Of a DNA stretch of 40,138 nucleotides, positions 2,740-40,138 are shown in pieces. This DNA is from Planctomycetaceae bacterium (lineage in GTDB: Bacteria > Planctomycetota > Planctomycetia > Planctomycetales > Planctomycetaceae). The DNA is taken from assembly GCA_020426105.1 (NCBI GenBank), contig JAGQQS010000096.1, forward strand, positions 1 through 40,138, given 5' to 3'. Made by a program: the position numbers and the translations under genes. The notes beneath the pieces were generated by a model. That model saw only the letters and a program-made list of their open reading frames with translations. It did not search any database and was not told the origin of the DNA. Position 1 is the first letter of the stretch. Each line of letters begins with the position of its first letter.

Positions 2740-2766
2740 AGCCATAAAACAAATTGCCGCGTTTTG

Positions 2767-4308: not shown

Positions 4309-4345
4309 GGCAATTTTCGCTGGCCGATTCCGACAAAGAGCCGAC

Positions 4346-5866: not shown

Positions 5867-6269
5867 GGAAATCTCCTGCGGTGGGCAGCGTTTTAGTCAG
5901 AGCGGAAGTTTTCAATTCCCAACGAAATCAGTCGCACTTTGTCAAAACACGTGCCCTGGTTCAACCGTTTGCTCCTGTCATTTTCCGGGTTCGGCGGATT
6001 TGCAGAGAATCATTGGCCTGAAACCCATACGATCGGCAGGGATCTGTCATATGCCGGAATAAAACGCGCTACTGGCTGTCGACGGGGCGCCTGAGTTCTC
6101 AGGCGAGAGCAGATCGCTGTTGCACAGCATGCTGGAGACGATCAGATCAGGCTGTGGCATAATGTGGTTGCCGGATTCGGGTCAGATCTGCCAGACAATG
6201 TTATTCCCGGTCCGCAACCGGGAACCGCTGACAAAACGCACGGGGCCGCCGAGTACTTGTTCGAGGCTC
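5867..6269. other. Intergenic region, no gene seen
   Basis: This stretch of 403 bp lies between two minus-strand genes. It should carry the promoter of the MFS gene near 5870-5950 and the 3' end signals of the thioesterase gene. Only one hairpin near 6204-6224 stands out. The open frames here look non-coding. Confidence 0.6.
6204..6224 (-). terminator. Hairpin downstream of thioesterase gene
   Basis: TTCCCGGT (6204-6211) pairs with ACCGGGAA (6217-6224) across a 5-nt loop, 45 bp past the stop of the minus-strand thioesterase gene. The stem is strong but no clean T-run follows on the minus strand, so termination is only a possibility. Confidence 0.35.
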
Positions 6270-6725
6270 TTAGCCGTCAGTATCGGGCACGATTTCAAAG
6301 GCGTTCAGTACTTCCGTGGGGACTCGGCAGGGCTGCAGCGTGTCGAATTTTACGAAGGCCCAGTTCGTCGACGCAAGGGTCAGTTTCTTCCCGTCGGCGA
6401 TTCGCAACAGTTCATACCGCCGCATCGACGTGACCCGCTTCATTTCGGCGACCCATGTCCTCACGATAATTTCATCGCCCGCGAAAGCAGGCACCAGATA
6501 TTCAATGAAATGCGAACGCACAACCCAGCCCTGTCCGAGTTCATAATAGGCTTTCGTTGGCCATCCCTGCGCTGCAGAATGAGCAACAGCCGCATGCTGC
6601 ATCCAGCGCATGTATTCGATATTGTTTACGTGTCCGACGCCGTCAATTTCGGCCTCGGTCACCTGAAGTCGATATTCGAATACGGCCGGCACGATGGTTC
6701 CTGCTTCTCTGTATAAGCTTTTCAC
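6270..6725 (-). CDS. Acyl-CoA thioesterase, 4HBT/YbgC-like hot-dog fold
   Basis: This 151-aa protein has the 4-hydroxybenzoyl-CoA thioesterase-type pattern. Residues about 20-45 (VTEAEIDGVGHVNNIEYMRW) carry the Asp-Gly-x-Gly-His-Val-Asn-Asn active-site turn, followed by a long central helix and strands ending in LASTNWAFVKFD. Such enzymes hydrolyse acyl-CoA thioesters in the cytoplasm. The chain-length preference cannot be told. The start is GTG at 6725, because no ATG lies before the conserved motif; the ribosome-binding site is poor. It lies 21 bp after the amidohydrolase gene, suggesting one transcript with the upstream amidohydrolase, second thioesterase and KAS III-like gene. Confidence 0.85.
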   Translation of the reverse strand: MKSLYREAGTIVPAVFEYRLQVTEAEIDGVGHVNNIEYMRWMQHAAVAHSAAQGWPTKAYYELGQGWVVRSHFIEYLVPAFAGDEIIVRTWVAEMKRVTSMRRYELLRIADGKKLTLASTNWAFVKFDTLQPCRVPTEVLNAFEIVPDTDG

Positions 6726-6746
6726 GGTACGACGAGAACGAATTGG

Positions 6747-8171
6747 CTACTCCGATGGTACTCGTTCCAACAAAGCCTGCGGCTGACACATGATCCCATG
6801 GTGCATAATCAGTTCCAGACTTCGTGTGTGGCGAATGTCGTCCAGGGGATTTTTCGACAGGAGCAGGATATCAGCAACCTTGCCTTCGGAGATAGAGCCG
6901 CAGCGTTCGTGTTCTCCGAGGACTGTGGCGTTAGTGAGGGTCGCCGCTTTGAGCACGGCTGCGGGGGGCAACCCGGACTGAACCAGCATTTCCATTTCCT
7001 GATGCAGCGCGAAGCCCGGCGTCACCTGCGGTTCGGGTGAATCCGTTCCCACAAGTAACGGCACGCCAGCGCGATACAGTTTGCCGGTCAGTTCCAGATA
7101 CTTTGCGAATTCAAGTTGACGATCTTCCAGTGATCCCCCCTGCGGACATCCTGTACGCCGCAAATAGACAGGCCAGAATTCACGCAGGCGTTTGGGAACC
7201 AGTGCGTTGTCTGGATGGTCATGGATGCCGGCAACGTCAGGCAGCAAAATCATATTTCTGAAAACTGCCAAAGTCGGATCAACAAACACTTTGCGCTGCG
7301 CGAGTTCCGTTACCAGGGATTCACAGACTGGACTGTTGAGACTCAGTCGACCGCGGTGGCCAGGCTGATTTTTGATCTCAGGCGGGATCACGTAATTGAA
7401 GACCGACCAGATATGTTCCAGACCATCAACGCCGTCCATGACCGCGTCCTGAGCTGAATACCTGCCGAGGTGCGCCGTCACAAAAAGTCCTCGTCGATGG
7501 CTTTCTTCGATCACGGCACGACCCACCGGGCGTGATGTTCCCGCATAGATTTTTACAGTCGTGATGTCCCATCGTTCGAGGTCGTCAAACAACTCGGGAA
7601 CCAACAGGGGATCGGTGATTGCGCGGCCAATGTCGCGATGAATCGGAGGATCTGCATCAAGCAGCGGACTGCATGTGAACACACGGGGGCAGAATTCCGG
7701 ATGTGCAGCGGCGAACCTCGCCACCAGTGTGGCCGCGACGACTTCATCTCCCGTACTGCGCACGGCTGTGACACCTGCTGCCAGGTAGAGTGGCAGTAAT
7801 TCGTCCCCTGTGACATGTGCATAGTCGAGGACATGCACGACATGGACGTGCGCATCGATGAATCCTGGCAAGGCGTACTTGCCGCGACCGTCGATCCGTA
7901 CCGCATCTGCGGGTATCTCCGGAATGTTGTTTTTTCCGGCTACATGGATGATTGTCGAACCGCGAACCACGACCGTCTGATCCGGCACCAGCGTGGCGGA
8001 TTCAGAATCAAACAGGCTGCAGCCCTCGATCACGATCGTCGTCTCAGCGGCGAAGACTTTCGAGGATGTCGCTGTGATTAAGGTCAAAGCGATGGCAGCA
8101 ATGCCAGACCAGACATACCGCTGGACCGGACGAAAACGGGTCTGTACCGCCATGCGTTTTGAATCGGACAT
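6747..8171 (-). CDS. Exported amidohydrolase family protein
   Basis: This 474-aa metal-dependent hydrolase is of the amidohydrolase (imidazolonepropionase-like/prolidase-like) type. The signal peptide is about residues 1-42 (VFAAE). The metal motif HVH is at 108-110 in GFIDAHVHVVHVL. Later ligands are likely in KIYAG (Lys), TAHLGR and GLEHIW (His), and VGTDSPEP (Asp), so the set looks complete. Export to the periplasm is inferred. The frame extends to 8255, inside the neighbouring thioesterase gene; the ATG at 8171 (or 8153) gives the signal peptide and avoids overlap. It sits between two thioesterase genes, 49 bp and 21 bp away. Substrate unknown; cyclic amide or dipeptide hydrolysis is typical of relatives. 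Confidence 0.85.
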   Translation of the reverse strand: MSDSKRMAVQTRFRPVQRYVWSGIAAIALTLITATSSKVFAAETTIVIEGCSLFDSESATLVPDQTVVVRGSTIIHVAGKNNIPEIPADAVRIDGRGKYALPGFIDAHVHVVHVLDYAHVTGDELLPLYLAAGVTAVRSTGDEVVAATLVARFAAAHPEFCPRVFTCSPLLDADPPIHRDIGRAITDPLLVPELFDDLERWDITTVKIYAGTSRPVGRAVIEESHRRGLFVTAHLGRYSAQDAVMDGVDGLEHIWSVFNYVIPPEIKNQPGHRGRLSLNSPVCESLVTELAQRKVFVDPTLAVFRNMILLPDVAGIHDHPDNALVPKRLREFWPVYLRRTGCPQGGSLEDRQLEFAKYLELTGKLYRAGVPLLVGTDSPEPQVTPGFALHQEMEMLVQSGLPPAAVLKAATLTNATVLGEHERCGSISEGKVADILLLSKNPLDDIRHTRSLELIMHHGIMCQPQALLERVPSE

Positions 8172-8220
8172 GTGCGCTTCACTCGTCGGCCGACCGAAGC
8201 ACATCGACCTGTTTGTTGTT

Positions 8221-8691
8221 TCAGCCAGGGTTTGGATTGTGGACAGACAGCTCAAACTGTTTCCTCAACTCTTCGGGAATTCTGGTTACGCGCTGGGCTT
8301 CGTAGTTGAAGATGACGACGACAGACTTGCCCTCAGCAACAATTTCACCCTGCTCCCGACTGACAACAGCATGCGCGATGTCTGCACTGGAACGACCCAC
8401 TCGAGTCACTTTCGATCCGACGTAGACGGTATCCGGGAAGCGCAGTTGTCGACGAAACTCGCAATTGATCGCCGCCAGAATGGGACCTATACCGGTGCCC
8501 TTCATTGACACGTGCGTATGGAGGGCCTCAAGAAAATCGATGCGGGAAGATTCGAACCAGCGAAAATAGACGATGTTATTGACGTGCCCGAAGGCATCCT
8601 GATCGCCCCATTGCACGGGCAGTGTCGTGATAGACGCATAGCCTGTTAGTTTTGTTCGAATAACAGCAGGAACTTCAGCGGCATGGATCAT
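8221..8691 (-). CDS. Acyl-CoA thioesterase, 4HBT hot-dog fold
   Basis: This 156-aa protein has the 4HBT signature WGDQDAFGHVNNIVYFRWFE at about residues 28-47, with Asp31 the likely catalytic residue and the long helix following. It resembles FadM/YbgC-type thioesterases. It differs clearly from the other thioesterase of the cluster, so the pair is not a recent duplication. The ATG at 8691 lies 41 bp after the KAS III-like gene, and the amidohydrolase start follows 49 bp downstream, which supports an operon. Release or trimming of acyl-CoA made or used by the neighbouring condensing enzyme is plausible but inferred. Confidence 0.88.
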   Translation of the reverse strand: MIHAAEVPAVIRTKLTGYASITTLPVQWGDQDAFGHVNNIVYFRWFESSRIDFLEALHTHVSMKGTGIGPILAAINCEFRRQLRFPDTVYVGSKVTRVGRSSADIAHAVVSREQGEIVAEGKSVVVIFNYEAQRVTRIPEELRKQFELSVHNPNPG

Positions 8692-8732
8692 GGTTCTGTC
8701 TCATTGCACCCTCGATATGATCATGGTTTGCC

Positions 8733-9881
8733 TCACCGTGCGAGAGTCGTCTCCTGGAAGCGACTTACTGAATTGGCCGCAGACACCCATTCCAGGCAGG
8801 CATGCCCCGCCGACATGTGGTTTTCAATTTCACGCATGCAAATCCCTGCACCCAGAAGAATAATGAGGTCACCATCGCTGATTGGCTGAAGATCGTTTTC
8901 TGCGAGCACCTGTGGAAGACGTGACATGATGGTGGGTACCGCAGCCGAAATTGTATTTCCGAAATCGCTGAGATTATTCAGAAACTCGAAATCAGGGTAT
9001 TCCAGTCGGGCTGCGGCAATGAGTGCTTTCAGCAGTTTACCACTGGGTTGATGCGGAATGACAATGACGCGCTGACCGGGCGTCAGATCGACCGATGCGA
9101 CGGCGGACCGCAAATTGTTCAGCATCAGCTCAATCCCGTTCAGAAACACGGTTTCTGCATTCATTCGCATGACAGTGCGCGTGACTGATTCTCCGCGGAA
9201 GGTGTAGACCTGTCCGGTTTCCTTTCGGAACAACGGTTCGGGGTTCGGGCGGAGGTCGGGAGAAATTGCAAAATCATCGGTACGAATCACGGCGACCGGA
9301 ATTCCGGTGTTGCGTTCCAGAATCACGCCGGTTGCTCCGGCCGACACGATGCCGCAGAACAATCGATCTGATCCATCATGCCACGTTTCCGGTGTTTCGA
9401 TATTCAATAACGCGATGCGTTTCACCTGTCTGCGATCGGCAAGCAGCAGCGTGCCCTCGTGCAGCAGTTTCAGGAAACCGCTGCATCCATAATTGAACGG
9501 CTGCACGGTGCGCGGTGCGTGGCCGTAGTGTGTCTCAAGCGCAGCAGCAAGTTGCTTTGCGCCGGAGTTATCCACGCCCGAATGACACAGCAGAACTGCG
9601 GAAAAATCGGCCGCAGTGTACCCTGACACACAGCAGAGCCTGTCGAATACGGCCGTGGCCAGATCGAACGCCGTGACACCGGGCTTCAACATGCGGCGCA
9701 GGATTACACCGGTTGATTTCTGGACAGAATCGGTACTCGAAAACCCGTTTTTTTGCCCCAGCGACGACAGATGGACAACGGTTTGGTTATCAATTCTGTC
9801 AAACAGATCCACTCGATCAAACACATCGACGAAACAGGACAGCCCGGGAGTTGCCTCCCGATCGACTGCATTGTCATCCAT
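8733..9881 (-). CDS. Beta-ketoacyl-ACP synthase III-like condensing enzyme
   Basis: This 382-aa thiolase-fold protein carries the FabH-type Cys-His-Asn triad: Cys133 in NYGCSGFLKLL, His277 in VIPHQPSGKLL and Asn309 in SDFGNTISAAVP. It is longer than typical FabH (about 320 aa), with a diverged N-terminus (1-40), and is more like the divergent KAS III-type enzymes of secondary or special lipid pathways. A frame-internal TTG at 9887 is possible, but ATG 9881 has GGAG six bases upstream and is preferred. Downstream lie a thioesterase (41 bp), an amidohydrolase and another thioesterase. It probably condenses an acyl-CoA with malonyl-ACP or a related donor; the product is unknown. Confidence 0.8.
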   Translation of the reverse strand: MDDNAVDREATPGLSCFVDVFDRVDLFDRIDNQTVVHLSSLGQKNGFSSTDSVQKSTGVILRRMLKPGVTAFDLATAVFDRLCCVSGYTAADFSAVLLCHSGVDNSGAKQLAAALETHYGHAPRTVQPFNYGCSGFLKLLHEGTLLLADRRQVKRIALLNIETPETWHDGSDRLFCGIVSAGATGVILERNTGIPVAVIRTDDFAISPDLRPNPEPLFRKETGQVYTFRGESVTRTVMRMNAETVFLNGIELMLNNLRSAVASVDLTPGQRVIVIPHQPSGKLLKALIAAARLEYPDFEFLNNLSDFGNTISAAVPTIMSRLPQVLAENDLQPISDGDLIILLGAGICMREIENHMSAGHACLEWVSAANSVSRFQETTLAR

Positions 9882-9968
9882 GGACAACTCCGAACCCTAA
9901 GAAGAAGCGGCAAGTTGAAAATCACTGGCCGCTCTTCGACAGGGCAGTCAGCTGTAAAGACACCAGAG

Positions 9969-11366
9969 CTACGCCTGGATTTCATAACCTTTACGTTGCT
10001 CGCGTGCCTGCCACATCGCAGCATCCGCATCGCCCTCGATTTGCTCCGTATCAGGATTCCAGTGCAGAGTCCGATCGAGGCGAATCGCGATATTTGCAAG
10101 GTGACAAACTGTCATCGCGCGATGGTGGCTGTGGACATCACTAATCGGCTGAGTCCGGTCAACAACGCTGTCAAAGAAATTTCTCATGTGCTGATTGGGT
10201 TCAAGGCTCGGCTGCTTACCCTTGTAAAGTGCCGTCAGCGTTTCTTCTTTCAGCGGGTTGTCCTTCAGAGCTTCAACTGCCGCACCCGTCAACTTGCTGC
10301 GGTTTACAAAGATCCGACCCTCAGTGCCTTCCAGCATTAGCCCGTTATCGAATCCCAGTTCTTTGGCGTCATTGCGGATGTGCAATACCGCATTGTTTTT
10401 GAATGTCGCAGTAACATGGAAATCCGTGGCCGTATTGTACTGCGTGGCATCGGTTGGCATGCCCTTAACAAACGGCACAGGATGTTTGGCCATAACCGGT
10501 TCCACTTTGACAGGACCGGTGTTTTCCAGATTAAATGCCCAGGCGGCAATATCAACGTGATGTGCGCCCCAATCAGTCATCTTGCCACCCGAGTATTCGT
10601 ACCACCAGCGGAACTCGTAGTGACATCGCGAGTTGCCATATCGGCTGCCCGTGTCCTTGAAACGATATTCTGTCACGGGTGCCTGACCGAGCCACATGTC
10701 CCAGTTCAGTCCAGCGGGCACATCGACGACATCAATGGGCCCGCTGGAAGGCGCGCCTCCAATGGCGACCGTGACGGTCTTCAGTTCTCCAATGCGTCCT
10801 TCACGAACCATGGCCACGGCGTGCAGGAACTTTAATCCCATTTCGCTGCGCTGCTGAGTACCGACCTGGAAGACTCGACCGGTTTCTTCAAGCACCTTGC
10901 GAATCTGTTTGCCTTCTTCAATTGTCAGCGTCAGCGGTTTCTCGCAGTAAACATCTTTGCCGGCCTTCATCGCCTCAATCGCGATTTTGGAGTGCCAGTG
11001 ATCGGGCGTCACAATGGTGACAACATCGATATCGTTGCGTTCGAGGATTTTGCGGTAGTCTTCGTACATGTCCACCGTACGCTCAGCACCCGGCTTGCTT
11101 TGCTTTTCGAGCGCAGTCGCTTTTCCCTTTTCAACATGGGCTTTGTCCACGTCACAGACCGCGGCACAATCAGCAAAGGCCATGGCATTTGGACCTACTC
11201 CGTTCCAGCGATCACCAGTCCCGATACAGCCCAAAACCGGTCGTTCCAGCGCACTGCGAAATGGAGCTGCAAATGAAGATGGCGCAAACCAATATGGGGC
11301 GGCAGCGGTCGCCAGTCCAGCAAGAGTCGTGTGCTTCAGAAATCCGCGGCGAGACTGGTTTGTCAT
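9969..11366 (-). CDS. Tat-exported Gfo/Idh/MocA family oxidoreductase
   Basis: This 465-aa protein has a twin-arginine signal (SRRGFLK, residues 5-11, hydrophobic to about 34), a Rossmann NAD(P) motif GCIGTGDRWNG (46-56), TPDHWH (120-125) and the family hallmark EKP at 142-144. The C-terminal alpha/beta domain includes TDWGAHHVDIAAWAF. Secreted members of this family are strongly expanded in planctomycetes and probably act on sugars or inositols with tightly bound cofactor. The start ATG at 11366 is preceded by GGAG at a 9-bp distance; the longer frame to 11381 would disturb the Tat signal. The KAS III-like gene follows after 87 bp, so co-transcription is uncertain. Confidence 0.92.
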   Translation of the reverse strand: MTNQSRRGFLKHTTLAGLATAAAPYWFAPSSFAAPFRSALERPVLGCIGTGDRWNGVGPNAMAFADCAAVCDVDKAHVEKGKATALEKQSKPGAERTVDMYEDYRKILERNDIDVVTIVTPDHWHSKIAIEAMKAGKDVYCEKPLTLTIEEGKQIRKVLEETGRVFQVGTQQRSEMGLKFLHAVAMVREGRIGELKTVTVAIGGAPSSGPIDVVDVPAGLNWDMWLGQAPVTEYRFKDTGSRYGNSRCHYEFRWWYEYSGGKMTDWGAHHVDIAAWAFNLENTGPVKVEPVMAKHPVPFVKGMPTDATQYNTATDFHVTATFKNNAVLHIRNDAKELGFDNGLMLEGTEGRIFVNRSKLTGAAVEALKDNPLKEETLTALYKGKQPSLEPNQHMRNFFDSVVDRTQPISDVHSHHRAMTVCHLANIAIRLDRTLHWNPDTEQIEGDADAAMWQAREQRKGYEIQA

Positions 11367-11644
11367 GAGTAGTGACTCCACTGAAACGAAGATTTTAACC
11401 GGGCGTATGTGGCGATGACGTGCAGTTCACGCCATCTTTCAATGGACAGCAGTTTACCGAGTCTGTAACGGGACTTCCAAACCGCAGAGCCTTTTCGTCG
11501 CACGTTGAGACAGATTTTCGATGGAGCGCTGCATTATCTTCAATGCCATGCGAACCTCCGTCGCAGGGATACAGAGGACATTGACTGTATAAATCCGTTG
11601 TCAAAACCAACTTTCGCAACATTCTGGCGATGGAGAAAGCCCCG

Positions 11645-11685
11645 AAAAAGAAACGGCTTCAACCACTTTCGCAGCTGAAGCCGTT
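11645..11685 (-). terminator. Rho-independent terminator, minus strand
   Basis: AACGGCTTCA (11652-11661) and TGAAGCCGTT (11676-11685) form a perfect 10-bp stem with a 14-nt loop. On the minus strand the stem is followed at once by TTTCTTTTT (11653-11645). No protein gene on the minus strand ends here, so the terminated transcript is unidentified. Confidence 0.65.
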
Positions 11686-11990
11686 CGATATAAACGCTCG
11701 CAGATAAACAAGAACAGGAGAACAGACTTATCATCTCCGTATGAACCGCGCGAGCATTTTCCGGAACCCCCGGACCAGGATGGAAACCGCCACGCGCAGC
11801 AAATGCTGATTGTGGCGAATGAACCCAAACTAAAATCAGCGTGCCGCAGAAAAGATCACTCAGTCGCACGCTGTGATAATAGAACGCAGGAAAGCAAAGT
11901 ACGTGCCAGACGGATCGACCAAGCCGCACAACGTGCGGCGATGAGGCACTTATGGAGGTATTCCTCACCTGATGTTAGCCAAAAACTACA
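11645..11990 (-). ncRNA. Possible structured RNA in a gene-free gap
   Basis: The 944-bp gap 11367-12310 holds no convincing protein gene. Upstream of the minus-strand terminator there are further inverted repeats: GGAGA/TCTCC (11717-11721, 11734-11738), CAGCGTGC/GCACGCTG (11837-11844, 11866-11873) and GCCGCAC/GTGCGGC (11923-11929, 11933-11939). A weak promoter-like pair (TTGGAA, TAACAT, 16 bp apart) lies near 11975-12002 on the minus strand. Together these fit a minus-strand RNA of about 0.3 kb. I could not match it to tmRNA, RNase P RNA or SRP RNA by their conserved blocks. The ends are approximate. Confidence 0.25.
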
Positions 11991-12089
11991 ATTTTCCAAC
12001 TTCCAAATGGGAAATCCCAATATTTTAAAAATTCGATGAGCCCAGGCACGGTCATGAATGGCGTGTGGCTTTTTGCCGCGTCACCTGTG

Positions 12090-12126
12090 GCAGTTTTGCA
12101 CGGCTGGCTCAGCAGTTTTGCACGGC
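12090..12126 (+). repeat. 15-bp direct repeat, two copies
   Basis: GCAGTTTTGCACGGC occurs at 12090-12104 and again at 12112-12126, a 22-bp period, about 190 bp before the DUF374 gene. It could be a regulatory tandem site or the relic of a minisatellite. Confidence 0.7.
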
Positions 12127-12310
12127 GCGGTGCCTCCTGCCATGTTTCGTGCTCCAGGCGGCTCCCGTCTCGATTTACGCAGTCTGGTCTCAACACGGAC
12201 ACGTAAATCGTATAAACTCGAATAGCCAGAGTTGATGGTGACTGTCAACTAATCCCGATTCCTGTTTACGACCGCAGGTCGCCTGTTTTAACTTCAGGGC
12301 ACGGAAGCTG

Positions 12311-13057
12311 ATGAAGATTCGTTCGCGTAAGTTAAACATTGTCGCATCGTACGTGGCGACTTTTTTCCTCAAAGTGTTGTTCCTTACCGTGCGCGTGGAG
12401 CATTTTCGGACCGTCGAAGACGGAACGCCGTATGAGCGCCCTTCGAAATCTCAGCGTTTTACGTTCAGTATGTGGCATGATCAGATCGTGCTTGCGGTGT
12501 TTTCACTGCGGACGTGGAGTTTGGCAGGATTAATCAGCCAGCACCGAGATGGAAGTTACCTCGCAGACTCTGTGTTGATCGCCGGTATTCAGCCGGTGCG
12601 TGGCAGCACGAGTCGTGGGGGTGCGGAAGCGGTGAGCGAAATCCTGAGTCGTCCGGACCTGCATCTGGCGATCACCCCCGATGGTCCGCGCGGCCCGCGT
12701 CGCGTGATGAAAGAAGGCATCGTTTATATCTCATCGAGATCCGGACGGCCCATTGTACCCACAGCGCTGGTCTGTGATCGCTACTGGGCGATTCCTGGTA
12801 ACTGGTCCGACATGGTAATCCCCAAGCCATTTTCCAGAGTAGTTTTGATCGCTGGTACTCCGATCGTCGTGCCTTCAGAACTGCCTCGGGAACAAATGGC
12901 ATGCTGGGCAGGCCTGGTGAATACGGAAATGGGACGTCTGGAACTCATCGCGCACCGGTTACTCAGCGGAGACGCCTCCGCCGCAACTGAAATTGACCGC
13001 ACCGCAGATCCGGAATATCGACCAAAGTCGGAATCACGCGTATCACAGGCGGCGTAG
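12311..13057 (+). CDS. DUF374 lysophospholipid acyltransferase-like protein
   Basis: This 248-aa protein shows the DUF374 pattern. An N-terminal hydrophobic anchor (about 10-28) is followed by MWHDQIV (54-60), SQHRDGSYLAD (76-86, with the acyltransferase-like His78), GSTSRGGAEA (98-107) and ITPDGPRGPRR (121-131). These resemble the HxxxxD and glycerol-phosphate-binding motifs of PlsC-type enzymes. Relatives act at the inner membrane in lipid A or phospholipid acylation in Gram-negative bacteria. The start ATG is preceded by GGAAG. The C-terminal 40 residues are polar and probably disordered. The 3' end abuts a transposase remnant on the other strand. A lipid A role is inferred from the family. 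Confidence 0.88.
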   Translation: MKIRSRKLNIVASYVATFFLKVLFLTVRVEHFRTVEDGTPYERPSKSQRFTFSMWHDQIVLAVFSLRTWSLAGLISQHRDGSYLADSVLIAGIQPVRGSTSRGGAEAVSEILSRPDLHLAITPDGPRGPRRVMKEGIVYISSRSGRPIVPTALVCDRYWAIPGNWSDMVIPKPFSRVVLIAGTPIVVPSELPREQMACWAGLVNTEMGRLELIAHRLLSGDASAATEIDRTADPEYRPKSESRVSQAA

Positions 13058-13516
13058 CAAACGGGGGATGACCCTGGGAGTCTGTCCGAATACAGGGAGG
13101 GCGAGGCTCCCGCCGAGCCGAAGCAGGGCACCCGTTCCACGATTCTCGCGGCTCAACAGGCGCTTCGCCGTCCCATACAAATTCACAGCCTTCACTGCGC
13201 GAGTCAGCAGCGTCGCGCCGGGCCAGTGGCTCGCCACTCGGAACCAGAGGTGGCGATGTGTCGCCTGCACCAGAGCGCCCCCTTTAAACAGGCGAGTTCG
13301 CGCCGTGTTCACTTCCATCCTGTTCACTTTCGGCGTCGCTTCATTCGCTTCGCGAAACAGAACATACAGAGCGTACGCCAACAGGGGCGTCATCCGTTTG
13401 TGACTGTTCGCCAGAAAGCGTTGCGAACTCAACCGATCCATGTGCAGATCATTCTTCGGTTCATCGATCGGACGTTCGGGGACATTGCCGCGCTGAACAT
13501 AAAACCCCGGATTCAT
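13043..13516 (-). pseudogene. IS1380-type transposase remnant (C-terminal part)
   Basis: The translated fragment FYVQRGNVPERPIDEPKND, then DRLSSQRFLAN, LLAYALYVLFREA and RTRLFKGGALVQATHRH, matches the end of IS1380-family transposases as I know them, where the catalytic Glu lies in an RGxxExxIxExKxD block. Here that block reads RGNVPERPIDEPKND. The N-terminal two thirds, including the first catalytic Asp residues, are absent: the GMC gene ends at 13562. The last 25 codons run into a dispersed palindromic repeat and are not transposase. No flanking inverted repeats or target duplications were found. This is an old, inactive fragment. Confidence 0.75.
13095..13120 (+). repeat. Dispersed GC-rich repeat, copy 1
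   Basis: GGGAGGGCGAGGCTCC followed by CGCCGAGCCG is nearly identical to three copies at 17470-17576. The inner GGCTC and GAGCC are complementary, so each copy can fold. Such elements resemble REP sequences. This copy sits just beyond the transposase remnant. Confidence 0.7.
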
Positions 13517-13561
13517 ACATTTCGGCAGCAGGTATTGTTTGAGATTTCGATGATGGTACTG

Positions 13562-15337
13562 CTAAAACCTGAGTGCCCCCTGAGCCGAAGTGGGCACGAT
13601 CGGGTTCTTCGGATAAATCGGCTGCAGTCGCTGGTAGGGTTCATTCATCGACGGCCGCGGATCCTGGTCGCCTTTGTTGGGCCATAGGGACATCGCACGC
13701 TCGGCCTGAGCGGTGATGGTCAGCGAGGGGTTGACCCCAAGGTTGGCGGACACCGCAGCACCGTCAACCACATGCAGTCCAGGGTAAGCATAAACACGAA
13801 GATATGGATCCACCACCCCGCTTTCGATCGAGTCCCCAATGGGGGCACCGCCCAGAAAGTGGGCCGTGAGCGGAATATTGAAAACATCATTCCATCCTCC
13901 GTAAGCCTCTCCCCGAATCTGGCGGGCGATTCGTCGGACGACCTCATGGCCGGTTGGGATCCAGGTCGGGTTGGGCTGGCCATGGCCCTGTTTGGATGTG
14001 AATCGTCGACCAAACCAGCCACGTTTGGTGTAGCAGGTGATCGAATTATCATGCGTCTGCATCACGAGGGCGATGATCGTCTGCTCCGACCAATTTCGAA
14101 GGTTCACGTTTCGCAGGACTTTGCCCGGATGTCGCAGAAATTCGCGCAACCACGTCACAATCGGGAACCGCTGGCCTCCCTGGGCAAGTGCCGTCGTCAG
14201 CAGGCCCATTGCATTGCTTCCCTTACCATAACGTACCGGCTCGACGTGCGTCTGTGGGTCCGGGTGAAATGAAGAAGAGATCGCGACACCGCGAGTAAAG
14301 TCTTTGGCATTTGAAAAACTACGAGCCCCCAGGATGGCCTCGGAATTGGTTCGAGTCAATTCACCCAGTCGTGGAGATAATCGGGGAAGCTGGCCTTCGT
14401 CGCGCATTCGATGCAGGAGTTTTTGTGTGCCCATCGTGCCTGCGGCGAATACGACCTGTCCAGCAATGAATGTTCGACTGTTTTGATGAATCCATTTTCC
14501 TTTAAACAGGCGATCACTTTGCACGGTATCAATTGCGTAGCGGCCATCTTCCAGGGGGCGGACAGTGGTCACGGTGGTCAGCTGATGCACGGTCGCGCCA
14601 CCACGTTCAGCCAGGTACAAATAATTCTTCAGCAGCGTGTTCTTGGCATTATGGCGGCAACCGGTCATACATTCTCCACACTGTATGCAGCCACGTCTTG
14701 GCGGACCAACACCTCCAAAAAAAGGATCTTTGGACTCGACACCCGGCTCGCCGAAAAACACACCAACTGGCGTGGGACGGAATGTGTTCTCGACTCCCAT
14801 CTCTCTGGCCACCTCCCGCATAATTTCATCGGCAGGAGAAATGCCCGGCGTCGGAACCACTCCCAGCATCCGGCTGGCCTGATCATAAAAGGGGGCGAGT
14901 TCAGCCTTCCAGTCCGTAATGTGGCCCCACTGCGGATCTGAAAAAAAGGCCTGCGGGGGAACATACAGCGTATTGCCATACACCAGGGAGCCGCCGCCCA
15001 CACCGGCGCCTGAAAGAATCATGACATTTTTCAACAGCGATATTCGTTGAATACCAAAGCATCTCAGAAGAGGAGCCCACAGGAATGATCGCAGATCCCA
15101 GGAGGTTTTCGGAAGGCTCTGCTCATCAAAGCGGCGTCCGGCTTCCAGCACTGCCACACGATAACCCTTCTCTGTCAGGCGAAGCGCTGCCGTGCTGCCC
15201 CCAAAACCACTCCCAATGACAACCACGTCAACCACTTCGGCATCATGCCCGACCTTCGCAGAATCATTGCTGCTGGCAGGCTGAGCGATTTTTTGTACGG
15301 TGGTTTTTGGGGCAAACTCGTTCTGGATGGATTGCAT
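13562..15337 (-). CDS. GMC-family FAD oxidoreductase with Cys4 motif
   Basis: This 591-aa flavoprotein is of the glucose-methanol-choline type, cholesterol-oxidase-like. The FAD motif GSGFGG is at 42-47, LEAGRRF at 64-70 and GAGVGGGSLVYGNTL at 110-124. C-terminal conserved blocks are TAHFLGGAPIGDS, HVVDGAAVSANLGVNPS and TITAQAERA, with the catalytic His in TAHFLGG. Cys217, Cys220, Cys223 and Cys227 form CxxCxxCx3C, a pattern that could hold a 4Fe-4S cluster and is found in a subset of GMC enzymes. No signal peptide is evident. The gene begins with ATG at 15337, 228 bp from the TolC-like gene on the same strand. The substrate is probably an alcohol or sterol-like lipid, not determined. Confidence 0.88.
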   Translation of the reverse strand: MQSIQNEFAPKTTVQKIAQPASSNDSAKVGHDAEVVDVVVIGSGFGGSTAALRLTEKGYRVAVLEAGRRFDEQSLPKTSWDLRSFLWAPLLRCFGIQRISLLKNVMILSGAGVGGGSLVYGNTLYVPPQAFFSDPQWGHITDWKAELAPFYDQASRMLGVVPTPGISPADEIMREVAREMGVENTFRPTPVGVFFGEPGVESKDPFFGGVGPPRRGCIQCGECMTGCRHNAKNTLLKNYLYLAERGGATVHQLTTVTTVRPLEDGRYAIDTVQSDRLFKGKWIHQNSRTFIAGQVVFAAGTMGTQKLLHRMRDEGQLPRLSPRLGELTRTNSEAILGARSFSNAKDFTRGVAISSSFHPDPQTHVEPVRYGKGSNAMGLLTTALAQGGQRFPIVTWLREFLRHPGKVLRNVNLRNWSEQTIIALVMQTHDNSITCYTKRGWFGRRFTSKQGHGQPNPTWIPTGHEVVRRIARQIRGEAYGGWNDVFNIPLTAHFLGGAPIGDSIESGVVDPYLRVYAYPGLHVVDGAAVSANLGVNPSLTITAQAERAMSLWPNKGDQDPRPSMNEPYQRLQPIYPKNPIVPTSAQGALRF

Positions 15338-15565
15338 TCGATTACCTAATGGCTTGCCACTTCCATTATGACCGACTTATACCACGGCGTCCGCCCGGGC
15401 GATGGAGGCCAACCCAGATCACCTCGTTGTTTTTGGCATCCATCCCGAGCTGTTTGATAAACGCAGGTTATCTGAATGGATGAATTGCTCAAGTTTCACC
15501 CGGGATTCGCCAACTTCCACCACTTTCACGACCGGAGGAAGTGGATCGGCTGCTTCGCAGCGGCA

Positions 15566-17182
15566 TCAACGTCCCAGTCGATCTTCCGCAAGTGCCGCGC
15601 GATAATCGGCGCGGGATTCGAAGTACAGTTTTAACGCATCCACATGCTTTTCTGCCGATTCAACGGCGTACTGTTCACGCAGAGTGACTTTCAGCAGGTC
15701 GGAAAGTCCGGCCTCCTGGTTTTTGCGTTCTCGAACGGCCAGATCTTCCGCATATTTCAATGCTTCGCCGGTTTCGTCCACCTGCTCCCATGCGGAAACA
15801 ATCGCCGCGTGCGCCATCTGCACATCAACCCCGATTTTATCTGCGGTGATGCGACGTTTGGCAGAAAGCTGTGCGATCTTGGCCTGCGACTCAGTCATTT
15901 TTCCGCGCGCTTTGCGGCGCTGAATCGGCACGTCCAGATAGACAGAGGCTTCGCTCTCAAACGGGGTCTTATCGCCTTTCTTGCTCGACGGTTCACCCAC
16001 ATCCTGAGATCCCCACAACACGGCGTTCACTTCCGGCTGCAGCTGATTAATGGCTTCTGAATAATCTACATGGATCTGTTGCCGCAGAATGTCGAGCACA
16101 CGGAGTTCAGGACGCTGTTGCAGAGCCTGCTGAATGCTGGCGGTCACATCGACTTCGATGACAGGAGTTTCCGGAAAACCGGGAAGCTGATCTTCTGTGG
16201 CGACAATCGGATTACCTGCAGCATCCCGCCAGTATACCGACAATTTAGCCGCAGTCTGCTGCATTTTTCGACGCGTATCCGCAACCTTCGCCTGGCGGAT
16301 TGAGACCAGACGTTTGTTGTCGGTAAGTTCCGGCGGATCGACCAGCCCCGCATTGACCTGCGATTCGATTCTTCCCGTGCGTTCTTCCGCCAGTGTCAGA
16401 ATACGTTTGGCGATGTTATGATATTCGCCCGCCGCAACCCAGTCCCAGTAGGCATACGAAGCGTCCTGGACAAAGCTGATCAGCTGCGCCTGGATTTCAG
16501 GCTCGGCAAGACTCTGACTGTATCCGGCTTTCCAGAGCTCAGCACGCCGCGCATCAATATCGCGGTTACGTGCGAGAGGAACCTGAACTCCTGCTTTGAA
16601 TTCACCGGCACCGTTGGTCTGCCGTTCCTGATACCACGGCTGAAAGTCGCCGCGTCCGATGCGATAGCCGGCAAAAACCTCGCCGCCCCAGTACGTGGGC
16701 TGCACCACGCCGATATTCTGACGATACGTCTGATAAAAACCCTGCGGGCCGTTTTCACTGGCGCCTTTGAGTTTCAAGTCGAATGCGCCAGAAGCGCCCA
16801 CGCGCTGACCCCAGGCGATATTTCGGCTGAGCAGGGCCGATTCGAGCAACGGGTAGCTTTGATACACCGAACTGACGACTTCATCGAACTGGACGGCGTG
16901 CAGTCCGGCGTCCATCGCTTTTCCCGGTGCGGCACTTTGCAACTCAGAGGTGGCAGCTTCAGGACGCTCTGCTTGTGATTCAGGAATATCCGCCTTGTCG
17001 TCCGTAACTTCTGCCTGATAGCTGGTCCGTTCAATCGCCGCTTCTGCTGTCTGCGGTGCGGAAGGCTGTTTGGGGGTGGGGTCGGACGTACGGGGTGTAT
17101 CAAGGATTGCCGTCGGCTTCCCTGAAGTAGCGCAACCAGTCAGCATGATCGCGGCAAAGATAATGCGGCAGATTCTGCGCAT
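15566..17182 (-). CDS. TolC-like outer-membrane efflux lipoprotein
   Basis: This 538-aa protein has a lipoprotein signal (RIIFAAIMLTGC, Cys17), a Ser/Thr/Pro/Glu-rich linker to about residue 90, and then the repeated helical hairpins of the outer-membrane efflux protein (OEP) family. Examples are the coiled-coil stretches with RQAKVADTRRKMQQTAAKL and MTESQAKIAQLSAKRRITAD. TolC-like proteins form trimeric channels for type I export or RND efflux; no inner-membrane partner is next to it. The frame allows TTG at 17188, but ATG 17182 directly before MRRIC is preferred, with GGGAAG about 10 bases upstream. Sequence after the last helix is short, as in the family. Confidence 0.88.
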   Translation of the reverse strand: MRRICRIIFAAIMLTGCATSGKPTAILDTPRTSDPTPKQPSAPQTAEAAIERTSYQAEVTDDKADIPESQAERPEAATSELQSAAPGKAMDAGLHAVQFDEVVSSVYQSYPLLESALLSRNIAWGQRVGASGAFDLKLKGASENGPQGFYQTYRQNIGVVQPTYWGGEVFAGYRIGRGDFQPWYQERQTNGAGEFKAGVQVPLARNRDIDARRAELWKAGYSQSLAEPEIQAQLISFVQDASYAYWDWVAAGEYHNIAKRILTLAEERTGRIESQVNAGLVDPPELTDNKRLVSIRQAKVADTRRKMQQTAAKLSVYWRDAAGNPIVATEDQLPGFPETPVIEVDVTASIQQALQQRPELRVLDILRQQIHVDYSEAINQLQPEVNAVLWGSQDVGEPSSKKGDKTPFESEASVYLDVPIQRRKARGKMTESQAKIAQLSAKRRITADKIGVDVQMAHAAIVSAWEQVDETGEALKYAEDLAVRERKNQEAGLSDLLKVTLREQYAVESAEKHVDALKLYFESRADYRAALAEDRLGR

Positions 17183-24272: not shown

Positions 24273-24655
24273 GGCACTGCGTCTATCCGGCGAAGTTCAC
24301 CCGTCAGGTTTGTGCCATTGCAGGATCGTCGCAATACGAAATGACCTGATGTGCTGACACAGAAAATTAGGAGACAGGAAACGATGATCCTGCTGAACCT
24401 CTGACGCTTTTGGGGAAATTCGCACGTTTGCGATGGCAAGCGAGACTATCGGCAGGGCAGATAGTTCGGGCAGGTGGCGGGTTCGGTCAGCTTTACAACT
24501 CCGGCGACCGCGCAGAATGGCATGTCGTTGCCGTAGAAAGCGGTTGCGTTAAAGAACTCGGTTACGCACGTTCGATGATGAAACGGGGGATACCGCGCGA
24601 CGAGTTTACCGGCGGAATTTGCCGGAACGAACCGACATCCAGGGACGGATTGGAC
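24273..24655 (+). other. Intergenic region before ExeA-like gene
   Basis: This stretch of 383 bp has no gene I accept. An AGGAG/AGGA stretch (24369-24379) precedes a six-codon ORF (MILLNL, 24384-24404). The open frame that runs into the ATPase gene from 24410 does not resemble protein. No terminator was found after mtnA. Confidence 0.5.
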
Positions 24656-27118
24656 ATGTACGTATCGCATTTTGGATTTCATCGACAGCCTTTCCACTCT
24701 GCCGATGCAGGTCGAGCGTTTTTTGTTTCGGAGTCGATCCGGAACATTCTGCCCCAACTGTTGCACGCACTGCGCTCAGATCTGGGGATCGCGGTTCTGA
24801 CCGGCGTTCCAGGCAGCGGTAAGACTTCGTTGCTGCGACACATTCAGCAACAGATCTCGAACGAGGGCCGAGCGATCGTCTGTTCAGGAGCCAGTCTGTC
24901 GACATCCGCAGAACTTTTCAGCGTATTGCTGGAGGCTTCCCGGAAAAGAGCGGGCACAGCCGAGCTGTCACGGACTGTCACTTCGGCCTCTTCACTGCAG
25001 GAGTCGCGGAGCGAAATTCTGGAACAGCTCCGCCGATCAGCCGAACTCTGGGGGCCTGTGCTGTTGTTGATTGATGACGCGCAGCTGGTACCACTCCCGG
25101 TTTTAAATGAATTACGGGCCTGTACCGAAGAAGAATGGAATGGTCGGGATCTGGTCCGCTGTCTCGTCTCTGCCCCCATCGTGTTCGAAGAACAGCTTGC
25201 GCGGGCGGAGTACGCCGAATTCAGCCGCAGAATTCGTTGCCATGCGTTCCTGGAGCCATTCAGGTCTTCTGAATCGCTGCGCTTCCTGCAGGAACAAATT
25301 GAACTTGTCGGAGGCCGCCTGTCGCAGGTATTCACAACGTCAGCGCTGGAGTTGATATCATCGGCTGCCGCAGGGATTCCACGCTGCCTCAGTCTGCTTG
25401 CCGACGAATCACTTGTCGTCGCAATGCAGAATGATGAACTGATTACCAGCGAAAAGTCTGTACGCAGGGCGCTCGGTCGTCTGCAGCATCTCCAGTATCA
25501 CTGGAACGCTTCGCCCGACTCAGACATCACTGATATTTCCACTGATATTTCAACCATCGCAAACCCGCTGTCGTCTGTATCGCAGCAGCCCATGCAGTTG
25601 TCCGGGAGTGCGGGCGTCGTGGAATTCGGAACGCGCAGTGCCGATCGATCCTGTTCAGCGAAATCACCTGTTGCCACAGAATGTGAGCCGACATCGAATT
25701 GTGCCAGCCTGGCACCCGGTGTCGTTGAATTTGGTGGTCCAGTGTTGCGATCAAGTGCGGCAGTTGCCCCACCATCTGCTGATTTACCTGCGGAAACCAT
25801 CGCAGAAGAAGCCTCAACTGCCACACCTGCGACCAGTGCAGAGTCGCGAACCACGTTCGAAGTCGGGCGTCGATTCTTTGCCGAGTCGTCTTCAGACAGT
25901 GTGTCTATTGAGAATTTCGGGGACTCAGAAGCCTCATCAGGTACTGGTATCGACGGGCTGGAAATTTACTGGATCGACGGGAATGCCCACGTATCAATTC
26001 CGGAGTCAGCGGCAGATGACGTTGATCTGCCCCTCCCTGCAGAGGTCCCGGCATCTGCACAAACGTGGATCGGGCCCGTTGAAACGGCAGAAGGGCAAAC
26101 GCTCAGCGAACCACGCGACAACAAATTCGTTTACACGCCAACTACTGACTTCATCGATTTGGGCGATTCGCGGCAATCGGTCTGTACGCCCGTGTTTGAT
26201 CGATATACGTGGATCGCTCTGGGGCGTGAAATTCCGCCGGGTATTACTTCCTCTGGATTGTCTGATCGGCACGGAATGTCGGCGGTTTCGGGGACACCTT
26301 CCGCAATCCATGCTGGGATTCCGTTTGAATCCATGCCGAACCGACTCAGGTCGTTATCCATTGATCACATTCCAGTCACGCGGACGACTGACGAAGTTCT
26401 GCTGGATCAGATTCGGAAAAACTCACTCGAGATCGAATCCGGAGCTTTTGTTGCGATTCAGCAGGAACCGCAGGCCGCTGGCCAGGTTTCTGAAGTCCCG
26501 GCTTTGAAGCTATGGCATGATGGTCAGCTGATATTCCCTGAAACGACCGAGCGTGAGTCTGTGATCGAGCAGGAAACGGAACTTGCGGAGCCAGTGTTGC
26601 CCAGCGGCGCGAAGCCATCGACAGCGCCCCGCCAGATTTCGGCAGGTGGCTTCTTCACATTGCCGATTCCTGTCGATCGGATTGAATTGGATTTGCGAGC
26701 GCTGGATTCTGCAGATGACTCAGACGTATTTCCGATCGTTGAAACGCTGGCAGGTTTGCGTGCAGAGATGCGAGAATTTCAACAGACCGGCAGAACTTTT
26801 GAACATGAACGGAGTGGACGCGAATCTGGCAGCGCCGGGAGCCATGAAAATTCCAGCGCCGACCGCGCCTCTGATGATTTGCTTGCCCGGGCCAAACGAC
26901 GACTTGATGAGCCGGGTGGGTTGGAAGCATCCACGATGGCTGCGGTGCAATTGGCATCTGTGGAATCCCGCCCAATGCGAGAAACCTGCGAATCCGTCAA
27001 TGCATCACGCGCACCTGAGGCTGAGGAGGATGCTGGAAAGACACTGCAATTAAGCCGTTTGTTTACAAGACTGTGGGAGACCCGGCGGCAAGATACGGGA
27101 GACATTGTTAATCCCTGA
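24656..27118 (+). CDS. ExeA-like AAA ATPase with long acidic tail
   Basis: This 820-aa protein has an AAA domain of the ExeA/AAA_22 kind in its first 280 residues: [15 protein letters not shown] (typical ExeA opening), Walker A GVPGSGKT (50-57), Walker B LLLIDDAQ (136-143) and a sensor region near 180-215. The remaining 540 residues are low-complexity, rich in Ser, Glu, Ala and Pro, and probably disordered, which is unusual for ExeA. ExeA-like ATPases help type II or type IV pilus secretion assemblies or transposition; no such genes are next to it. The frame begins at 24410, but the ATG at 24656 matches the family start. Function uncertain. Confidence 0.82.
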
Positions 27119-37130: not shown

Positions 37131-37232
37131 AGGATTGAGTCGTTTAACCGTCAGCCGCAGGCGTACGCGCACGCGGCCTTGTTTGAAGCGTACGCCTGCG
37201 GCTGAAGGTTAAACGAAAAACACCTCAATCCT
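37131..37232. repeat. Long imperfect palindrome (102 bp)
   Basis: Left arm 37131-37168 and right arm 37188-37232 pair almost fully (core CAGCCGCAGGCGTACGC), with one mismatch and a small bulge, around a 19-bp loop. It lies between the HAD gene and the large gene at 37404 and resembles a mobile hairpin element. The core is unrelated to the one at 35911-36001. Confidence 0.85.
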
Positions 37233-37403: not shown

Positions 37404-40138
37404 ATGCCGTGGACACGCGCAACTCACTTGGACCAGTGGGCGGACACAGAGGTTGCTTCGCGGCGGCTGCCTTTACTCGTCCGAAAATTGGTTCGAAAAA
37501 CCGTTCCTGACGTCAACCGACTTAATATTCCGGCAAATGAGCAGACTGTTCGTCCCGGATTTGATGGCATCGTTGAATGCACCGTCGGTAATCAGTTTGT
37601 CCCTGCCGGGAGAAGTGTTTGGGAAATGGGGACGAATCAAGACCCCGAAGTTAAGGCGAACAGCGACATATCGCTGCGAGCCAAGCAATTGGGTACCGTG
37701 GAGCGAAGTGAAACAACTTTTGTATTCGTTACGCCGCGCCCATGGCACAAGAAGGACACATGGGCCTCAAGAATGGCCACGAACGAGGGCTGGAAATCCG
37801 TCGTAGTCCACGATTCGAACGACCTCGAACATTGGCTCGATTTGGCACGCGACGTTGATGCCTGGATTTCACATCAAACGCGACAAGTCCCCTCTGGAGT
37901 TCAGAGTTTAGAACAGTACTGGGGATCGCTTCGCCTGATTGCCAAGCATCTGCTACTTCCGGAAGTGTTTACCGCCTCCCGCGAAACGGAACGTCAGTCT
38001 ATCACAGCGTTTCTAGGCCGATCCCCCGATTCATTGTTTATCCGGACCGCGAGTCTCAGTGATGGAGTAGATTTTCTTGCTGGCCTTGCATCTGAGCAGG
38101 CCGAAGCGTTTCAGTTGGGGGACCCTGCGATTGAGCCGCAGCATCTCTCGCTATTGCAGAATGCCGTAATTGTCTTCAACCAGGACGATTGGCGGCAGTT
38201 GGCCCATAGTGATACCTCGCTGCTTTTGATCCCTTCCCCCACGTTGCAGGTGTCCTCGACTGACGTTGCATCCGCAGTTGAGGCCGGCCACTACGTTATC
38301 GTGACAGGGCCGAGAGGGATTGTCCCAGCTGACCGGGGCATCGTATTGAGAGGAGTCCAGCAATATGAACTGGAAAAGGCGTTAGTAAGTAGTGGTTACA
38401 GTGATTCTGAAGCCGGCTCACTTGCGAAATCGTCTACAGGAAATACGACAATTCTCAAACGGCGGATGGCTTTGCACCCGGAAACAGTTCTACCACCTTG
38501 GTCGGAACCTCCGCTGGCAACCGACCTTGCTTTTTTGGCTTTGATAGGGGGATGGACTCACGTCAGTCCTACGCCTCCTTCTCAGCAAGACGTACCAGAA
38601 GCTTTCAGACACATTCCACCCAGTGACTTGACCATCCTAGAACTTGGTGGATACCCGATGAGGGAACTTGATCAGCTGATAGCGCGATGGAAAGAACCAC
38701 CAGAGCCATTCTTCTTAAGATTCAGCGACACGGTCTTGATCACTTCGAGGGAAGATGCGTGGTATTTACTTGGAGACTACGTCACTGCAGAGCAACTAAG
38801 AAAGTTTCGTGACTTGGCAATCATGGTCCTCGTCGAAGACAACCCAGCTTTGGAGCTAGAGCCTGAAAAGAGGTGGCTGGCCAATGTTTACGGCAAGCGT
38901 CATTCGATGTCCGGCGAGTTACGCAAATCCCTAGTTGAAACGCTGGCCATTATGGCGACGTGTCCGACCGTAACACAGCAGTCGGCCAAAAATCGCTTCA
39001 CAAGTACGATCGAAGAAGTTGTCAGGTCTGTACTGCCAAAGAAGTGTGATTGGAAGCGCTGGGCTTCTTTGCGAAACCACTTCCGCGTCATCGCCGAGGC
39101 AGTACCGGAGATGTTCTTAAGTCGTATTGAAGAAGATCTAGAGTCGCCCTCGCCTGCAGTACCCCAATTGTTCGAGGAGCAGACTGGTTCGTTCACGGGC
39201 GGCCGAATGCACTGTGAGCTTCTCTGGGCGTTGGAGGCCTTAGCATGGTCGCCCGATTACCTTCCTCGTGTAACAGTCATCCTTGCCAAACTCGAATCTC
39301 TGACAAATGTTCCCGGAAACCAAAGCAATCGGCCAGAAAACAGTCTTCATGAGATCTTCTTACTATGGTTACCCCACACTAACGCAACCGTCAGTGAACG
39401 GGTTGCGAGCTTGGAAAATGTGTTGCACATCGAACCGACCGTAGGGTGGCAAGTTGTTTTGGCACTTCTGCCGAGTTCGTACTCGGGTTTTTCGCATTCC
39501 ACCTCAATGCCGCGTTGGCGCCCGTGGGCCGATGGATGGTCACGAGACTTGGTTAACCAGCAGCGATACGAGTATGCAATGGCCATTGCCGATCTCGCGT
39601 TTGCATGCATCGGAGACTCTCCTGAGAAATGGTCCGAAGCTTTGGCTGGCATGTTGAGTTTTAATGAAGCGGTCTCGAAGCGGGCGGTTGTAAATCTGCA
39701 GCAAGTCGCCGAGGTGTACCAGGCGAATACAGACGGAGCATACCAACTATGGGATGCACTACGTTTGATCATTCAGCGACATCAGGAGTTCTCGGAGGCT
39801 GACTGGGCCTTTTCGGCAGAGACCATCGAGACGTTGCAACAAATTCGAGATCAGGTGGTTCCGACGGATCCAGTCTTGAAGCATCTATGGCTGTTTGATT
39901 CGCATGTGGAGCTACCTGGATGGAGGCAAACGCCATACGAAGACCAACAAGCGGCGTTGGAAGTCGCCAGAACTAATGCCATTCGTGAAGTTCTTAATGT
40001 GAATGGTTCGGACGGACTCTGGCGACTGATTGACCACGGCGCGGATGCCAGAGGGGTGGGTGTTGCATGCGGTAAACACGCGCTGGTCGATCCAAGTGTA
40101 GCACAACTGCCTCGGTCGCTTGCTGATGTGAGCGAGAG
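37404..40138 (+). CDS. Large nuclease-like/STAND-like protein, 3' end beyond window
   Basis: The frame stays open from ATG 37404 to the right edge (911 codons). Residues 48-150 resemble a PD-(D/E)xK nuclease fold: RPGFDGIVEC (Asp54), SVWEMGTNQDPEVKA (Glu74, Lys84), TFVFVTPRPWHKKDTW and a final strand with VVVHDSNDLEHWL. Residues about 190-360 look like an AAA/STAND core: SLFIRTASLSDGVDFLA, LQNAVIVFNQDDW, TSLLLIPSPTL and GYSDSEAGSLAKSSTGNTTI. No Walker A P-loop is visible where one is expected. The rest is helical and repeat-like. Large proteins of this build occur among phage-defence genes, but I cannot name the family. Function inferred, C-terminus missing. Codon use shows more A/T-ending codons than neighbours, by eye. 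Confidence 0.75.
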   Translation, partial: MPWTRATHLDQWADTEVASRRLPLLVRKLVRKTVPDVNRLNIPANEQTVRPGFDGIVECTVGNQFVPAGRSVWEMGTNQDPEVKANSDISLRAKQLGTVERSETTFVFVTPRPWHKKDTWASRMATNEGWKSVVVHDSNDLEHWLDLARDVDAWISHQTRQVPSGVQSLEQYWGSLRLIAKHLLLPEVFTASRETERQSITAFLGRSPDSLFIRTASLSDGVDFLAGLASEQAEAFQLGDPAIEPQHLSLLQNAVIVFNQDDWRQLAHSDTSLLLIPSPTLQVSSTDVASAVEAGHYVIVTGPRGIVPADRGIVLRGVQQYELEKALVSSGYSDSEAGSLAKSSTGNTTILKRRMALHPETVLPPWSEPPLATDLAFLALIGGWTHVSPTPPSQQDVPEAFRHIPPSDLTILELGGYPMRELDQLIARWKEPPEPFFLRFSDTVLITSREDAWYLLGDYVTAEQLRKFRDLAIMVLVEDNPALELEPEKRWLANVYGKRHSMSGELRKSLVETLAIMATCPTVTQQSAKNRFTSTIEEVVRSVLPKKCDWKRWASLRNHFRVIAEAVPEMFLSRIEEDLESPSPAVPQLFEEQTGSFTGGRMHCELLWALEALAWSPDYLPRVTVILAKLESLTNVPGNQSNRPENSLHEIFLLWLPHTNATVSERVASLENVLHIEPTVGWQVVLALLPSSYSGFSHSTSMPRWRPWADGWSRDLVNQQRYEYAMAIADLAFACIGDSPEKWSEALAGMLSFNEAVSKRAVVNLQQVAEVYQANTDGAYQLWDALRLIIQRHQEFSEADWAFSAETIETLQQIRDQVVPTDPVLKHLWLFDSHVELPGWRQTPYEDQQAALEVARTNAIREVLNVNGSDGLWRLIDHGADARGVGVACGKHALVDPSVAQLPRSLADVSE

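Follow-up and report, generated by a model that had tools for sequence, protein, structure and literature searches.

A contig-truncated planctomycete protein with a predicted nuclease and a P-loop-less STAND/AAA+-like module belongs to a likely mobile anti-phage family

The focal gene and its surroundings

The window, that is, the whole stretch of DNA analysed (40,138 bases), comprises contig JAGQQS010000096.1 (G000:C1074) in its entirety and ends in a large open reading frame that is preceded by an inverted repeat:

37404-40138, plus strand: focal gene, ATG at 37404, frame open to the window's last codon, 911 codons seen
37140-37216, no strand assigned: inverted repeat between a HAD gene and the focal gene, arms 37140-37168 and 37188-37216 (29 nt, 97% complementary)

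The reading frame and coordinates given in the initial annotation are borne out. Because the window is the entire contig, the focal protein is cut at its C terminus after 911 residues, and a full length of ~1,260-1,300 amino acids is expected. The nearest relative found, L097, is encoded on the minus strand (6896-10765) in a genome of the same family, comprises 1,289 amino acids and is 56% identical to the focal protein over 905 residues. Searches of Pfam, NCBIfam and PDB sequences with the focal protein returned nothing above the cut-off, and the family has no name in Pfam, NCBIfam or PADLOC. Its sole listing is PHROG 18693, annotated as of unknown function, whose profile matches over most of its length (E 2.3e-87; focal residues 1-876 to profile positions 1-843 of 1258). 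At the level of curated families, the suggestion that the protein may be undescribed was therefore right.

A palindromic element ahead of the gene had been pointed out before and is indeed present, whereas a role for it in the focal system is not supported: the inverted repeat occurs as one copy in the genome and has no Rfam match, and we set it aside. It is probably unrelated to the focal gene; that it marks the transcript end of the upstream HAD gene is a guess. The proposed difference in composition from neighbouring genes holds in part. The gene has a low GC3 of 0.540 and a codon-usage divergence of 0.087, roughly double the 0.03-0.05 of the other long window genes, but its GC content is ordinary (0.529), and foreignness on GC grounds was rejected. 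The genes upstream in the window are metabolic but are not conserved neighbours of the family, so the consistent housekeeping context that had been named as speaking against a defence role was not observed. The HAD gene was considered as a conserved neighbour and dismissed, since in five genus relatives that carry it neither the focal gene nor other window genes lie beside it. Further upstream, positions 24410-27118 encode a 902-residue protein with an AAA_22/AAA_16 ATPase domain.

A predicted PD-(D/E)XK nuclease domain

The N-terminal region carries the following predicted elements, with conservation counted across 40 aligned relatives that are mostly 24-40% identical to the focal protein:

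37404-37883, plus strand: predicted PD-(D/E)XK nuclease domain, residues 1-160 (AlphaFold, alignments of relatives)
37563-37565, plus strand: D54 codon, predicted metal-binding Asp; D in 39/39 relatives with the residue present
37623-37625, plus strand: E74 codon, predicted second acidic active-site residue at the end of strand 69-75; E in 40/40
37653-37655, plus strand: K84 codon, predicted relocated catalytic Lys in helix 81-95; K in 39/40
37665-37667, plus strand: D88 codon, invariant; D in 40/40

Two AlphaFold models agree on an alpha-beta-beta-beta-alpha-beta core composed of strands 37-40, 55-59 and 69-75, helix 81-95 and strands 105-109 and 132-136, with pLDDT values of 90-97 over most of residues 60-140. 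The Asp54/Glu74/Lys84 arrangement recognised in the initial annotation is thus present and conserved, the flanking strands (residues 37-136) are of nuclease type, and the AlphaFold check on residues 48-150 predicts the nuclease fold instead of its absence. Lysine relocation is known within the PD-(D/E)XK superfamily. If the catalytic lysine has moved, paired changes are predicted in which K84 is lost and K76 gained; the sole K84 exception, L055 (WEVK...AEANKD), has E84 in place of the lysine together with K76, which restores the canonical E-x-K, although this paired change is seen in one sequence. On the basis of sequence conservation, D54, E74 and K84 very likely form a PD-(D/E)XK site whose lysine has moved. 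In a PDB fold search with residues 1-420, the restriction enzymes Nt.BspD6I and EcoT38I as well as MUS81 appeared as weak, lower-ranked matches. By its predicted site, the focal protein would be expected to cleave DNA in a metal-dependent manner.

A STAND/AAA+-like module that lacks a P-loop

The nuclease domain is followed by a degenerate module:

37956-38498, plus strand: degenerate STAND/AAA+-like module, ~residues 185-365; aligns with the PD-Lambda-4_A P-loop NTPase and has PDB fold matches
38046-38072, plus strand: Walker A-equivalent position; TASLSDGVD against the cousin's GASGLGKSR in hhalign

A P-loop (G-x4-GK[S/T]) is absent from the module region in 40 of 40 relatives, and the P-loop-bearing cousin aligns across this region, in line with the STAND-like part without a P-loop described earlier. 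One P-loop pattern, in L026, sits in the nuclease part and was discarded as a chance match. A lid-like motif, LxRRL, runs across the family with L351 and R353 invariant; model confidence in the full-length AlphaFold prediction is low at residues 260-311. Two members, L018 and L027, have a short N terminus only, and two variants are wholly devoid of the ATPase-like module. The module is probably a hinge or oligomerisation scaffold that would work independently of ATP, without using nucleotides.

The top two hits of the PDB fold search with residues 1-420 were structures of Avs4 in complex with phage portal, and AAA+ clamp-loader subunits came next. The Avs4 scores (probability 0.94, E 0.005) come with a modest TM-score of 0.30 by query, and such fold scores are suggestive but not decisive. 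Helical-repeat proteins such as importins and SAMD9 (TM-score ≤0.2) swamped the full-length fold search, which was not taken as functional evidence.

Kinship with PD-Lambda-4_A

Profile comparison by hhalign between the focal family and seven PD-Lambda-4_A relatives gave a probability of 99.4% (E 6e-22), colinear over 980 columns at 13% identity. Against a single PD-Lambda-4_A sequence the value was 97.1, and none of eight decoys, which comprised reversed and shuffled sequences as well as unrelated large proteins, exceeded 0.3. Another PD-Lambda-4_A sequence, trimmed to its annotated start, reached only 3.1. The focal protein gave no strong match to the PD-Lambda-4_A HMM, scoring 14.9 bits (E 9.4e-4) in one stretch, where a true member gives E 8e-66. 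At the level of sequence profiles, the two families clearly appear to share a common, albeit remote, ancestor. The PD-Lambda-4_A relatives keep D53 and Q76-x-K78 invariant in their nuclease-like part, and all seven sequences have an invariant G-x-SG-x-GK and V-D. In a published screen, PD-Lambda-4 lowered the plating of lambda-vir (Vassallo et al. 2022, PMC9519451); no mechanism for it was found in the literature searched.

The helical C-terminal part and domain exchange

The remainder of the protein forms one long element:

38499-40136, plus strand: C-terminal helical repeats from residue 366 to the truncation, a predicted sensor; all-helical in AlphaFold

The long helical part noted before is thereby recovered. 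In L019, L021-L025, L029 and L035/L051 the same C-terminal module (hhalign 100) is joined to another N-terminal domain, which reads NPFSTGGGG...GQIKHS and is D...QxK-like by eye. This exchanged-N-terminus variant was also found in 8 of 5,426 genomes, where it lies in lambdoid prophages of E. coli and adjoins tail-fibre genes. Its copies L072 and L073 (both 12007-15549) are annotated as hypothetical only and lie beside tail-fibre assembly genes. Most plasmid members bear an extra Xre-type HTH ahead of the nuclease, which the focal protein does not have. Just upstream of L018 (6387-9481), the member devoid of nuclease and ATPase-like parts, lies a separate 106-residue HetE-N gene.

Distribution and neighbours of the family

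Within a set of 99 near relatives, the focal gene was found in no genome but the window's own; the 17 other genomes searched from the genus do not have it. Matches were found in 18 of 398 genomes of the class sample and 9 of 392 of the phylum sample, some relatives being fragments. The family is further represented in 22 plasmid records from Pseudomonadota, Bacteroidota and Actinomycetota, all less than 60% identical; 11 of them are conjugative and 5 mobilizable. A Shewanella plasmid copy is closer to the focal protein (30% identical) than L050, a relative from the same family (24%). This patchy spread fits horizontal movement. Two further scans of viral contigs added nothing new for the family. 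The single-protein search of genome contigs gave one locus, L002, which is no relative but a spurious hit within a gene resembling tRNA-lysidine synthetase. Corynebacterium glutamicum gave the sole family match among 14 well-known control genomes.

The initial annotation had proposed that related genomes be inspected for defence genes around the family. A recognised defence gene lies within ~8 kb of 16 of the 27 relatives inspected, namely in 8 of 12 annotated plasmid regions and 8 of 15 chromosomal regions; none was recognised around the other 11, among them L097, the closest relative. The 245 kb of control sequence, five stretches of the same plasmids, held 2 defence genes, a contrast that is indicative only, since these stretches are small and the plasmids were picked for defence neighbours at the focal regions. 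The neighbouring systems, confirmed by PADLOC or annotated, are AbiE, type I and type III restriction, Lamassu, PD-Lambda-4_A, PDC-S02 and SIR2, and abortive-infection genes and a Lit-like gene likewise occur. AbiE stands head to head with the family gene in three Rhizobiales plasmids (L007, 5096-10783; L008, 5097-10783; L009, 5094-10783), AbiEi/AbiEii lies beside L102 (6221-12280) and L103 (3823-9740), and AbiEii beside L100 (4533-10545). This head-to-head order of HTH-bearing members with AbiEii or AbiEi/AbiEii recurs across phyla, in Rhizobiales plasmids and in the window's class. In two Rhizobium plasmids, from R. leguminosarum (pPR4) and R. gallicum, a PD-Lambda-4_A gene directly follows the relative (L012, 6659-14686; L008, 6719-14679). 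In L051 the family gene is located between hsdS and hsdR; the type I restriction operon there (2729-16093) holds a PDC-S05 (RhuM-like) gene in addition to the family member.

Proposed role and alternative explanations

The domain order and the relation to PD-Lambda-4 support a role in defence. We consider it likely that the focal gene encodes a mobile defence protein that acts alone against phages (or plasmids), is similar to Avs and NLR proteins and has a switch devoid of nucleotide-binding motifs. The helical repeat, from about residue 366 onward, would sense something that an invader makes or alters, and the signal may be relayed via the STAND/AAA+-derived module, which has lost Walker A and B. 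This relay could free or assemble the N-terminal PD-(D/E)XK nuclease (D54, E74, K84), which would then cut DNA, either that of the invader or the cell's own in an abortive infection. Nuclease activity, trigger, phage target, cell fate and independence from nucleotides are features that we infer. The anti-phage logic put forward in the initial annotation gains support from the remote PD-Lambda-4_A homology, the frequent defence neighbours, the N-terminal exchange and the prophage-borne variant; its account of the domains was correct and its view of the role probably so. Points against our explanation are the modest fold matches, the two variants without the ATPase-like module and the 11 neighbourhoods that contain no recognised defence gene.

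The occurrence of the family on plasmids, half of the 22 records being conjugative and five more mobilizable, would also suit a protein that restricts incoming plasmid or conjugative DNA in a competition of element against element instead of acting against phages. Such a function has a small but real chance of being correct; the family is, however, found in prophages and chromosomes too, and lambda was the phage by which the closest tested cousin was selected (PMC9519451). The Xre-type HTH of many members and their head-to-head arrangement with AbiEi/AbiEii could be taken to indicate a regulator or toxin-antitoxin partner, whose nuclease would serve plasmid stability or be kept silent by the HTH. 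We regard this as improbable, as the focal protein and many others have neither HTH nor AbiE, chromosomal members lie inside type I restriction operons, and AbiE itself is a phage-defence/TA system.

The apparent AAA+-like fold and the lid-like motif LxRRL kept across the family leave room for a nucleotide-dependent STAND protein, in which the pocket binds ATP or another nucleotide via a diverged non-Walker site or via a partner. This seems unlikely given that none of 40 relatives has a P-loop, whereas the cousin's motifs are invariant in 7 of 7 sequences. Finally, the truncation at the contig end, the fragmentary state of some relatives and the metabolic genes lying upstream might point to an inactive remnant or a housekeeping DNA-binding protein. 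The active-site residues are nevertheless kept at great distance, the frame is open and the gene is missing from 17 other genus genomes; together with the domain and context results, these observations make a remnant or housekeeping protein hardly credible.

Immune proteins of the NLR and STAND type are generally regarded as switches driven by ATP. A family with their architecture, a nuclease and a sensor but no nucleotide site would show whether the ATP switch is dispensable, and the P-loop-bearing PD-Lambda-4_A provides the natural comparison. The occurrence of the family in Pseudomonadota, Bacteroidota, Actinomycetota and the window's phylum includes an E. coli variant that is directly testable. 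In addition to the anti-phage role, we tentatively propose, at somewhat below even chance, an effector-switch-sensor immune family that permanently dispenses with nucleotide binding, with a relocated lysine, ATP-free activation and a sensor that works with two or more nuclease types as well as with a separate HetE-N partner.

Comparison with known systems

PHROG 18693 is the same family as the focal protein by sequence and offers neither function nor mechanism. Inactive STAND (iSTAND) modules have been recognised in MoxR-vWA and in BREX BrxB/BrxF/PglW/PglZ (PMC7159879, PMC8195603, PMC12839542). Like them, the focal family seems to combine a STAND fold with degenerate Walker motifs, and they too serve as sensor or relay, nuclease fusions included. 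The likeness is one of concept. The focal protein is a standalone giant gene product with fused nuclease and helical sensor and has a P-loop-bearing sister family, and no MoxR, vWA or BREX genes were seen beside the inspected relatives among the neighbours that carried annotations or were scanned with HMMs. Avs4 (AVAST type 4; PDB 8dgf, a phage portal sensor) has the same succession of nuclease, STAND module and helical sensor, but the focal protein lacks the P-loop and matches no Avs model by sequence. PD-Lambda-4_A (PADLOC PDLC03991) shares a D...(Q)xK nuclease-like start, the NTPase and the helical C terminus and is colinear almost throughout. Intact Walker A and B motifs and a canonical Q-x-K are retained in PD-Lambda-4_A and missing from the focal family, whose lysine lies in the next helix.
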